Shown here: positions 3,369-6,689 of the stretch, piece after piece | Layout of the letters: each line of letters starts with the position of its first letter | How positions within the stretch are numbered: the stretch's first letter is position 1 | Assembly (NCBI GenBank): GCA_903924765.1 | Contig: CAIYCT010000088.1 | Span: 1 to 34,697 of the forward strand | Length of the DNA: 34,697 bases | Reading direction: 5' to 3' | Origin: an uncultured Rhodospirillaceae bacterium | GTDB taxonomy: Bacteria; Pseudomonadota; Alphaproteobacteria; Rhodospirillales; Magnetospirillaceae | Made by a program: the position numbers and the translations under genes | Notes under the pieces: generated by a model | Told to the model about the DNA's origin: nothing | Seen by the model: the letters and a program-made list of their open reading frames with translations, nothing else | Databases searched by the model: none

Positions 3369-4715
3369 ATGGCATCTCTCCCGTATATGAATATTCCGGA
3401 CCAACCATTTAGCAAACCCACGCCCGATGAATGGCAGAAAATCCTTGCCGAAGGCGGGGGGGATTTGATGGCATCCCCTTATATGGGTGAAGGACGGCGG
3501 AAATTGGCCGATGCCTTGGAAAGCAATGGATATCAGTATCCGGCCCGCAGTCTTTTGTCGGGTAAGCTGATCCCGCTGCTGGGGCGGGCATACTTTCCGC
3601 CTCGAGTGCGGACGTTCAGTATTTTCGACGCCGATGCCGCCGATCACGGAGTGTCCGTGATCCCCGTTGAGCCGCAGCCACTGACTGAAGGTTGGTTACC
3701 CGCTTCCGTTGGGATTTCCCCGGTTACCGAGACCATGAACGCACGTCCGCGCTGGAAGCGAAAGCATTTCGTGGCTCAATTGCAAAACGGACACTGCGTA
3801 CTGTCTCCGTGGGGGTATGCTATCTTCTCGAAAAATGAACACTATTCGGTCGATTTCTGCTGCAATGATGGTCCCATGATTGCTTGGAGCGGTGTTGTTC
3901 CCCAACCAACGTATATTCCAGGTACGGTTGCGGTCCTGGCCCATTCCTGGAGCCATGCCGTGTTTCACTGGATCATGGAATCCATGCCTCGCATGGAGTT
4001 GCTGCGTCTGGCGGGCTTTCCCCCAGAGACCGATAAAATCGACCGAATCGTCGTGCGGTCTCTCGAAAAATGGCATCACGAATTTATCGAGCGTTTGGAA
4101 ATCCCAATTGAAAAATTCGTTGAGGTCGGTCATATCGGCCATATCACAGCGGATACTCTTTTGGTTTGTTCCAATGTCGAAGAAAGTGATTGGACCAAGG
4201 ATCCGCCCTATTTCGAGCCGGAACCGTGGGTCACCCGTCTTGTGGCGGATTTCATTCCTGATGAAAATCCCGTCTCACCTACAGAGCGTATTTATATTTC
4301 CCGGGCAAACGCCGGTTCAAGGCGGATCGCCAATGGTGATGACTTAAAACTGTTTCTTGAGAAAAACAGTTTCAGGACCGTCTTTTTTGAAGATAAAACA
4401 ATGGCGGAAAAGGCGGCAATAATGCGTAGCGCTGCAGTTGTTGTCACCCCTTCGGGGGCGGCGTTGACTAATATCCCCTATATGCGACCAGGAACAAAGT
4501 GCGTGGTTCTGTACCCCGAAGACCATTTTGTTTCCCTGTTTAATGCCATATGCGCCAATGTGGGGGTTGTTCACATCCATGCGGTGTTCCCCTCGATTGT
4601 GCGTTATTTCCCAGGTCAATTTTGCGGAGTAGCTGAGCATCTGCGCGAGCAATTGATAGACATTCCTCATTTAGCGGACATTCTGAACCACTTCAACGTC
4701 CCTGTTGCCTTATAG
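3369..4715 (+). CDS. Glycosyltransferase family 61 (DUF563) protein
   Basis: 448-residue protein with the hallmarks of the GT61/DUF563 family, which transfers sugars in capsule, O-antigen and other glycans. Seen: the mid-protein motif HSWSHAVFHWIMESMPRM (around residue 195), a family signature of HWxxExxPR type, then IYISRANAGSRRI and, toward the C-terminus, a nucleotide-sugar-binding stretch with TPSGAALTN. No signal peptide or membrane segment is evident, so it probably acts at the cytoplasmic face. Start ATG 3369 follows the SDR stop by 30 bases; the ribosome site is weak (AAGAAAG). It is the last gene of the A/T-richer plus-strand block and meets the next gene tail to tail with an 8-base gap. 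Donor and acceptor sugars unknown. Confidence 0.85.
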   Translation: MASLPYMNIPDQPFSKPTPDEWQKILAEGGGDLMASPYMGEGRRKLADALESNGYQYPARSLLSGKLIPLLGRAYFPPRVRTFSIFDADAADHGVSVIPVEPQPLTEGWLPASVGISPVTETMNARPRWKRKHFVAQLQNGHCVLSPWGYAIFSKNEHYSVDFCCNDGPMIAWSGVVPQPTYIPGTVAVLAHSWSHAVFHWIMESMPRMELLRLAGFPPETDKIDRIVVRSLEKWHHEFIERLEIPIEKFVEVGHIGHITADTLLVCSNVEESDWTKDPPYFEPEPWVTRLVADFIPDENPVSPTERIYISRANAGSRRIANGDDLKLFLEKNSFRTVFFEDKTMAEKAAIMRSAAVVVTPSGAALTNIPYMRPGTKCVVLYPEDHFVSLFNAICANVGVVHIHAVFPSIVRYFPGQFCGVAEHLREQLIDIPHLADILNHFNVPVAL

Positions 4716-4723
4716 CGAAAGAC

Positions 4724-5407
4724 CTATTTGGACACGATGTTCATGATGTCCTCGAACCCGCCATCCACGTTGTCGGGGGTCAGGATGGCGAAGGTGTCCA
4801 GAATGATCACCGCGTTCAAAACCGCGTCGCGGCTGACGGCGGATCGCATGCGTTCGGTAAAGGCCGAATTGACGATGGAAAGATTTGCATAGGCGTCCTT
4901 CAATCCGTCAAAGGACAAGGTGACCGGTTCGCCGATCGAGCCGCTTTTGATATACTCGGTCAAAAGCCAGGTGCCAAGGCTGCGGAACACTGTTTCGCGT
5001 TGGTCCGAAAACGGCAAATGAAAGCGCGACATGGGGCGCAAGAATTCGGTGCGCGGGCATCCCGACGTCGCCATGGTCAGTCCGACCAAGGACGCGACCG
5101 CTTCCTGCAAGGTCTTCTTGGAGACGATGATGCGCCTGGCGGTTTCAACCTCGACGATGGCTTGGGTGTAGGAAAAGGCGTTGGAAAATTCGGGCAGGAA
5201 ATGGGCGATGCTGACGGCCGCGGGGCAATATTTGGGGCCTTCTTCGATAGGGCAGTTGGAGCATTTTTGAAACTCCAGCTTGGTCCAGTCGGGCCTGGGC
5301 GAATCGTGCGGCAGCAGGATATGAAAGGTATCCTTATCAAACGAGAGTTTGACAACGAACTCGGGCTTGCCCTTTTCATGGAATTTGTAGGCGACGGTTT
5401 CAGGCAT
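4724..5407 (-). CDS. Uncharacterised Cys-motif protein
   Basis: 227-residue soluble protein that I do not recognise with confidence. Its N-terminal 45 residues look like a short beta-rich segment (YKFHEKGKPEFVVKLSFD...FHILLPHDSP). This is followed by a cysteine cluster, CSNCP then YCPAAVSIAHF (spacing C-x2-C-x8-C), and a further Cys in SGCPRTEFLRPM. The rest is predicted helical (TLQEAVASLVGLTMATSGCP, SAVSRDAVLNAVIILDTFAIL). The spaced cysteines suggest a metal or Fe-S site, but none of the common ferredoxin spacings is complete. No signal peptide or membrane span. Composition matches the core genome rather than the adjacent glycan island. It is alone on its strand, 95 bases downstream of murI, and could be the last member of the acidic-protein/murI unit. 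Confidence 0.75.
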   Translation of the reverse strand: MPETVAYKFHEKGKPEFVVKLSFDKDTFHILLPHDSPRPDWTKLEFQKCSNCPIEEGPKYCPAAVSIAHFLPEFSNAFSYTQAIVEVETARRIIVSKKTLQEAVASLVGLTMATSGCPRTEFLRPMSRFHLPFSDQRETVFRSLGTWLLTEYIKSGSIGEPVTLSFDGLKDAYANLSIVNSAFTERMRSAVSRDAVLNAVIILDTFAILTPDNVDGGFEDIMNIVSK

Positions 5408-5502: not shown

Positions 5503-6351
5503 TTACTGGTGGACTAGATCGATAATATTAACTTCGGCTGGGTCTATCGCCCAAGGTACGAAGACGGCGGCGACGCGGGCGAAGCGTTCGGGGGCATCGG
5601 TCGCGAAATAGCGCACCGGCGCGGGCACGGTCTGCTTGGGAGCGGAAATGGCGCGGTTTTCCAACAAATCCTCCACGGCGCGGGCGGTGGTGGTGGCGGA
5701 GTCGACGATGGCGACGTTGGGGCCCAGGAGTTGGCGCAGCAGCGGCAGAAACGCAGGGAAATGGGTGCAGCCCAGCAACAGGCAGTCAGCGCGCTCCAGC
5801 GGTTCGGGATCGAGAAAGGCGTTGGCCAGATAATGTCTGGCCACCTGCATGGCGATGGGGCCGTCAACCATGCCTTCTTCCGCCATGGAGACGAACAGCG
5901 GGCAGGCTAATTGCGACACGCTGGCCCCAGGCCGGGAATGAAGAATCGAGCGGGGATAGGTTCCTGCGCGTACGGTGCTTTCGGTGGCGATGACCATGAT
6001 CTTGCCGCGCGGGCTGGCATGACCGGCTGCCTGCGCGCCCGGTTCGACCACGCCCAACACCGGCAGTCCGGGAAATTCGGCCCTCAGCGCATCCAAGGCG
6101 TGGGCGGACGAGGTGTTGTCCGCCACCACCAGGGCTTTAATGCCGACCGAGACCAAGGCCTTGGCGGCTTCCAGGGCATAGGCGCTGACGGCGGCGGCGC
6201 TTTTGGTGCCGTAGGGCAGGCGGGCGGTGTCGCCCAAATAGATCAGCGGCTCGTGGGGAAGGCGCTCGCGCAACGCCTTCAACACCGTTAAACCGCCGAC
6301 GCCGGAATCGAATACCCCGATGGGGAGGGATACCGACGCCTTAGCGGTCAT
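5503..6351 (-). CDS. murI: Glutamate racemase homologue, first catalytic Cys replaced by Asp
   Basis: 282-residue Asp/Glu racemase family protein that by homology interconverts L- and D-glutamate for peptidoglycan. Seen: N-terminal FDSGVGGLTVL (Asp15, Ser16), LPYGTK (45-50), GVVEPGAQAA (100-109), LACPLFVSMAEEG (148-160), and the second catalytic motif LLGCTHFP with Cys195 and His197. In place of the usual ACNTAS there is VVADNTSSA, so the first catalytic cysteine is Asp78 (codon 6118-6120, GAC on the coding strand). In MurI both cysteines act as the two acid/base residues, so racemisation by the known mechanism should be impaired or altered. All other motifs are intact, so this is not a decaying gene. 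Start ATG 6351 overlaps the preceding small gene's stop (ATGA, 6348-6351), indicating translational coupling. Family is certain; racemase activity is not. Confidence 0.85.
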   Translation of the reverse strand: MTAKASVSLPIGVFDSGVGGLTVLKALRERLPHEPLIYLGDTARLPYGTKSAAAVSAYALEAAKALVSVGIKALVVADNTSSAHALDALRAEFPGLPVLGVVEPGAQAAGHASPRGKIMVIATESTVRAGTYPRSILHSRPGASVSQLACPLFVSMAEEGMVDGPIAMQVARHYLANAFLDPEPLERADCLLLGCTHFPAFLPLLRQLLGPNVAIVDSATTTARAVEDLLENRAISAPKQTVPAPVRYFATDAPERFARVAAVFVPWAIDPAEVNIIDLVHQ

Positions 6352-6689
6352 TCGTCTTCCAGCTCGGACGCCGGGACGATGGTGACGCCTGTGCCGTCGT
6401 CAAGCTCAAGGATGGCGACGTCGCCAACGATGCGTTCTTCTTCGGTTGCCAGATGGTTGAAGTATTCCCACAGGAAGGCGATGGCGTAAGCCTGATCGTC
6501 GGCTTCGTCCTCGTTGATCTCGTCGTCTTCCAGACCGGCCAGATCGCGCAGGATTTCCAGGGAATCGTCGAACATCTCCATCAGATCCATGGGTTCTGAT
6601 TTCAAATCGTCGATGATGCTATTAAATTCCTCATCGTCCAGTTCATATTTCCACTGGGCGGTGCTGGACTGGTAGTAGACGGCGATCAT
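6348..6689 (-). CDS. Small acidic protein of unknown function, coupled to murI
   Basis: 113-residue, strongly acidic soluble protein, rich in Asp and Glu throughout (LEDDEINEDEADDQAY near residue 53, ELEDE at the C-terminus). No signal peptide, membrane span or cysteine. Its start is well supported: ATG 6689 with GGAGGAA as ribosome site immediately upstream. Its stop overlaps the murI start by four bases, so the two are translated as a pair. I do not recognise the family. Location suggests a partner or regulator of the racemase homologue, but the arrangement could be incidental. Confidence 0.75.
   Translation of the reverse strand: MIAVYYQSSTAQWKYELDDEEFNSIIDDLKSEPMDLMEMFDDSLEILRDLAGLEDDEINEDEADDQAYAIAFLWEYFNHLATEEERIVGDVAILELDDGTGVTIVPASELEDE

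Follow-up and report, generated by a model that had tools for sequence, protein, structure and literature searches.

An Asp-for-Cys variant of MurI in Magnetospirillaceae, predicted to bind glutamate without racemising it

The window, meaning the whole stretch of 34,697 nucleotides analysed here from an uncultured member of the Magnetospirillaceae, encodes a MurI homologue in which aspartate takes the place of the first catalytic cysteine. The same variant (hereafter D-type) forms a conserved clade within the family, and nearly every genome that carries it also has a normal Cys-type paralogue. Judging from sequence comparison, we predict that D-type is a glutamate-binding protein that does not racemise, likely with a regulatory role, which stayed behind at the probable original murI locus once a duplicate had assumed D-glutamate synthesis; we give this reading a probability of about 0.5.

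The D-type gene and its predicted structure

The window gene is a MurI by both descent and fold (Table 1). In a profile search its product scored 203 bits against the TIGR00067 glutamate racemase profile (cut-off 146.65), and against NF002035 it scored 213 bits and the AMB-1 paralogue 200, both below that profile's cut-off of 328. On TIGR00067 the D-type protein of AMB-1 reached 206 bits vs 200 bits for the paralogue of the same strain, so family profiles cannot tell the two apart. The predicted structure of the window protein (pLDDT 96) has the two-domain racemase fold, the first 48 PDB matches of the model are glutamate racemases, and the fold is common to the MurI structures 2gzm, 2jfo, 5w16 and 1b73 (TM 0.74 to 0.89).

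Table 1. Positions of the D-type gene and of its catalytic and pocket codons in the window
Feature	Position	Strand	Basis or remark
D-type MurI homologue	5503..6351	minus	282 aa; open reading frame and TIGR00067 profile match
Codon 78 GAC (Asp78), replacing the first catalytic Cys	6118..6120	minus	plus strand reads GTC
Codon 81 TCG (Ser81); Ala in paralogue and outgroup; change linked to Asp78	6109..6111	minus	
Codon 195 TGC, second catalytic Cys, retained in the window gene	5767..5769	minus	
Asp15-Ser16, retained pocket residues	6304..6309	minus	residue counts in the D clade
Pro46-Tyr47-Gly48, retained pocket loop	6208..6216	minus	residue counts in the D clade
Asn79-Thr80, retained pocket residues adjoining Asp78	6112..6117	minus	residue counts in the D clade
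Thr196-His197, retained pocket residues	5761..5766	minus	residue counts in the D clade

The open reading frame reads VVADNTSSA at the first catalytic motif and LLGCTHFP, the normal form, at the second. The initial annotation had placed Asp at the first catalytic Cys, and this is borne out by codon 78, which lies opposite the Cys of the ACNTAS motif in an alignment with Aquifex MurI 1b73; going from Cys to Asp at this codon takes two base changes. The annotation also held that all other family motifs were intact, which stands apart from one linked change that it did not single out, Ala81 to Ser. Where MurI glutamate racemases have Cys and Ala, D-type has Asp78 and Ser81, and in the model a helix spanning residues 79-92 begins right after Asp78, with Ser81 as its third residue. 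Going by its sequence, D-type does not have the two catalytic cysteines of an active two-base glutamate racemase, the first being Asp78, and it does have the conserved residues of the substrate pocket. These are common to MurI glutamate racemases and D-type, as is the second Cys in most members, and we take the roles of Asp15, Ser16, Pro46-Gly48, Asn79, Thr80, Thr196 and His197 to be those seen in MurI structures.

Distribution of the Asp78 clade

Using a search of the family and an order-wide DNA motif pattern, we found the Asp form in 37 of 55 family genomes belonging to 9 of 17 genera, AMB-1 among them, with one D-type copy in each. Across the 317 genomes of the order, the DNA pattern found no Asp form outside the family, and the three remaining matches carry Trp within the motif and are due to chance. 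A class-wide sample of 385 genomes returned the window's own genome and one Trp-type chance match, with no further Asp case. Codon 78 is GAC in 32 and GAT in 5 of the 37 D-type genes and TGC in 36/36 paralogues; an identical Asp codon class in all 37 D-type genes means that the residue is neither a sequencing error nor a product of chance.

Residue counts refer to the proteins listed, namely the best 120 of 8000 scored candidates in each search. Among the best 120 for D-type, 111 have Asp at position 78, one has Gly and eight have Cys, the last being the most distant of the matches listed (e.g., Telmatospirillum and Skermanella), and the named records among the best matches are Magnetospirillum aberrantis, UT-4, LM-5 and 64-120. 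Four D-type proteins (P0011, P0026, P0029 and P0101) are labelled as coming from Solirubrobacterales, Bacteroidales, Bacteroidota or Actinomycetota metagenome-assembled genomes, and their contigs were probably binned into the wrong genomes. A scan of the contigs of named organisms with two peptide patterns returned other MurI only; the patterns are not specific to the clade.

Residue conservation and constraint

An alignment had been proposed to see whether Asp78 is conserved in a clade, and this proved to be the case: besides the 37 genomes, 111 of the 112 D-clade proteins listed have it, the remaining one (P0047) having Gly, as arylmalonate decarboxylase does. Ser81 is present in 112/112, and Ala81 in 120/120 paralogue proteins listed and 11/11 outgroup proteins. 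All 120 proteins listed for the AMB-1 paralogue have Cys at both catalytic positions. Cys195 is found in 107/112 D-clade proteins listed and is replaced by Ala in P0019, P0024, P0037, P0053 and P0056, which cluster close to M. aberrantis in the tree and have neither catalytic Cys. Since these five have lost the second Cys too, two-base racemisation is not what the clade conserves.

The pocket residues are almost constant in the D clade and the paralogue alike: Ser16, Pro46, Tyr47, Gly48, Thr80, Glu158, Thr196 and His197 occur in 112/112 D-clade proteins listed, Asp15 in 111/112 and Asn79 in 110/112. Thr126, constant in the paralogue, is Ala in 5/112 listed D-clade proteins and in 8/34 D genome copies, suggesting that constraint is somewhat relaxed close to the D pocket, which could reflect a changed ligand. 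Under thresholds that we set ourselves, eight sites (K25, A52, D78, S81, L192, L204, D228 and V265) separate the D clade from the paralogue and outgroup.

Of the two genes, the one with Asp is more strongly conserved. Pairwise comparison covered 34 of the 37 genomes, leaving out G019 (disrupted paralogue), G044 (paralogue of 325 aa) and G002 (no paralogue). When pairs of genomes were compared for both genes, the D copies were more alike than the paralogues in 556/561 pairs, with a median identity of 72% vs 60%. The median dN/dS was 0.28 for D vs 0.36 for the paralogue, with D having the lower value in 448 of the 554 pairs that could be used, seven of the 561 having been dropped with dS outside 0.02 to 1.5. 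For the closest relatives of AMB-1, the D value is not lower than that of the paralogue among the rows listed.

The Cys-type paralogue and other candidate sources of D-Glu

The second murI that the initial annotation had suggested looking for is present on contig C355 of the window's assembly, with ACNTAS and GCTHFP motifs. A Cys-type paralogue was found in 36 of the 37 D-type genomes and all 36 genomes bearing it also carry the D copy, the two lying about 56 kb apart in AMB-1. The search detected none in G002, a genome of 340 contigs that is 99% complete, and in G019 the gene is disrupted. The G019 paralogue (G019:C7:125072-125873) consists of two overlapping pieces in different frames, which may be a genuine disruption or the result of faulty assembly. 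The paralogue of G044, a genome 79% complete, has an odd length of 325 aa, and its match ends at residue 219.

In our searches, eight of the 55 family genomes are without an intact Cys-type MurI, six having no MurI at all and the others being G002 and G019; four of the eight are less than 90% complete, all of them among the six. A Dat-like aminotransferase scoring at least 218 bits, though below the TIGR01121 cut-off in every genome except G012, occurs in 8/8 of these genomes vs 27/55 overall, a co-occurrence that, leaving kinship aside, has a chance of about 0.002. All 24 D-type genomes that lack a Dat-like gene have the paralogue, G044 with its copy of odd length among them. Every one of the 37 D-type genomes thus has a Cys-type paralogue or a Dat-like gene, so D-type is in no case the sole candidate for supplying D-Glu. 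This pattern fits D-Glu being supplied by other genes and supports that prediction, but does not decide it.

The six genomes with no MurI match (G004, G007, G008, G010, G011 and G018) each have a Dat-like aminotransferase, with scores between 224 and 266 bits. The idea that D-type serves as the sole D-Glu source where the paralogue is missing was not supported, given the Dat-like gene in both G002 and G019.

Evolutionary origin and gene neighbourhood

A 95-row tree resolves the D clade as one group (100/99) and the paralogues as another (100/100), with Skermanella MurI outside both. Telmatospirillum J64-1 has a single MurI, of the Cys type; this protein and two metagenome proteins group with the D clade at moderate support (94/85). 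A topology that unites the D and paralogue clades was not rejected (AU p 0.367), so a duplication before the Telmatospirillum split and one after it are both compatible with the data.

Two genes adjoining Telmatospirillum murI, one of them encoding a holin-superfamily protein (PF07332), were also found near D-type in 7 of 37 D loci from five genera, where they are divergent and lie about 0.9 to 1.2 kb upstream of the D-type murI. Neither was seen at any of the 36 paralogue loci within the fetched spans of 3.5 to 10 kb. These shared neighbours suggest that D-type probably occupies the original murI locus and that the active copy is the one that relocated.

No operon partner conserved across D-type loci was found in the 37 fetched spans. 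The 113-aa acidic protein at 6348-6689, which overlaps the D-type murI by four bases (6348-6351) and has no Pfam match above cut-off, had been thought a possible part of the change. We rejected it as a partner: matches to it occur in 52 of 55 family genomes, some of them without the Asp variant, and it abuts D-type murI solely in the window and G015, lying about 2.5 to 8 kb off in 23 loci and beyond the fetched span in 12. The window genes for a GT61 glycosyltransferase (3369-4715) and a DUF6901 protein (4724-5407) adjoin D-type murI and have no counterpart near the other fetched D-type loci.

A Crp/Fnr-type pair lies within 27 of the 37 D spans, directly upstream and divergent in 23, and is not found beside the window copy. 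At most of the loci where the pair lies upstream it is followed by DUF2249 and hemerythrin genes, a cluster that may serve a nitrosative or oxygen response. Two consensus patterns for Fnr-type sites gave no match in the 37 D-type upstream stretches, one of which is 75 bases long.

Proposed role and alternative explanations

Among the explanations put forward at the outset, lost racemisation beside a paralogue that supplies D-Glu fits best, given the second murI and the clade-wide Asp, and is what we predict. In an ancestor of Magnetospirillum, Paramagnetospirillum and Phaeospirillum, murI would have been duplicated and the copy at the old locus would have exchanged its Cys for Asp. Asp78 and Ser81 may then cap the end of the helix that formerly held the catalytic thiol, after the manner of a capping box, in which a pair of residues caps a helix end. 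The capped helix would fix a non-reactive pocket in which glutamate is still bound, and the output would most likely be control, through protein-protein contacts, of wall synthesis or DNA gyrase. In known MurI enzymes, to our knowledge, racemisation is abolished when either Cys is lost, and a carboxylate at position 78 would presumably act as a weak base towards the alpha proton of free glutamate. In other racemases and epimerases, Asp and Glu do act as bases (PMC8142540). With the pocket retained, some clade members devoid of both cysteines and other D-Glu candidates at hand, a non-racemising glutamate binder is the most economical reading.

Gyrase-inhibiting MurI proteins are normal two-Cys enzymes. 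Those of E. coli, B. subtilis, M. tuberculosis and M. smegmatis have the same fold and a second role, and the inhibition is described as uncoupled from racemisation (PMC10886550), so such a role could outlive the loss of catalysis. D-type differs from usual MurI in having lost the second Cys in 5/112 listed proteins and in having a normal paralogue in nearly every genome.

The main rival is a working enzyme with Asp-dependent chemistry, in which Asp78 would serve as acid, base or nucleophile towards a substrate resembling glutamate, assisted in most lineages by Cys195. The reaction might be an elimination, a decarboxylation, a hydrolysis or the transfer of a proton at an activated carbon. We regard this rival as a possibility worth keeping, if an unlikely one. 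Asp78 and Ser81 are more constant than Cys195 (111/112 and 112/112 vs 107/112 proteins listed), and their near-invariance could equally mean catalysis by Asp; for the one-base or decarboxylase activity raised by the initial annotation, that of Asp78 is the sole hint. The first Cys of arylmalonate decarboxylase, which lies far outside MurI, is Gly and the second is kept; D-type resembles it in having lost the first Cys and, in 107/112 proteins listed, kept Cys195, but has Asp rather than Gly. Against an Asp-dependent enzyme stand the lack of a conserved pathway partner in the neighbourhood and the variation of Thr126 and Cys195 within the clade, and in the model an Asp at the start of a helix would suit a structural cap equally well. 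EcL-DER, an aspartate/glutamate racemase, belongs to a different branch of the family. It resembles D-type in having one catalytic Cys replaced (Thr83/Cys197) but has Thr rather than Asp there, and it is still an active one-way enzyme, unlike predicted D-type (PMC12661438, PMC8142540). Such relatives show that swapping one Cys alters the outcome: according to PMC8142540, EcL-DER with its Thr/Cys pair is unidirectional, and a Cys-to-Thr change turned trans-3-hydroxyproline epimerase into a dehydratase. That the clade is a new enzyme type seems to us rather doubtful; such an enzyme would have an Asp-based site at the old murI locus, be more tightly constrained than the true racemase, perform a reaction unlike that of known Cys/Cys or Cys/Thr members and, in one group, do so with neither catalytic cysteine. 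It is improbable that D-type still racemises glutamate, slowly or one way, with Asp78 standing in for the first thiol. The retained pocket, Cys195 in 107/112 proteins listed and the conversion of L-Asp by one-thiol EcL-DER (PMC12661438, PMC8142540) would agree with this, but both thiols are missing in five listed clade members, an Asp at that position would presumably be only weakly basic towards free glutamate, and a Dat-like gene is present in G002 and G019, as in the family's six MurI-less genomes.

D-type might instead be an obligate dead partner, forming a heterodimer with the paralogous MurI that the active copy requires. The D copy is present in all 36 paralogue-bearing genomes, and there is precedent in the AdoMetDC prozyme of trypanosomes, a dead paralogue that activates the active enzyme beside it, although that protein is unrelated to MurI (PMC6221367). 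On the other hand, the D copy is kept in G002, where no paralogue was detected, and in G019, where the paralogue is disrupted, allowing for possible assembly faults; given these two genomes, a partnership is possible but perhaps not obligatory, and we consider the obligate form improbable. When a gene has a second copy, decay commonly begins with the loss of a catalytic residue. A decaying pseudogene or a sequencing error is nonetheless extremely improbable, with the same Asp in 37 genomes of nine genera and D more conserved than the paralogue in both pairwise identity and median dN/dS.

Implications

In the collection of papers that we searched, we found nothing on glutamate racemase in Magnetospirillum or as a pseudoenzyme, and nothing on an Asp variant of MurI. 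Searching for Magnetospirillum together with murI gave titles on other matters, and for Magnetospirillum transposon, essential-gene or peptidoglycan work we found only reviews. Public records label many D-type proteins as glutamate racemase, and the D-Glu step in magnetospirilla may therefore be credited to the wrong gene. One genome here holds an intact enzyme and a slower-changing version that has the pocket but not the first thiol, and the pair would offer a natural test of the roles that MurI has besides racemisation. As AMB-1 holds both copies and is genetically tractable, the question is directly testable there.
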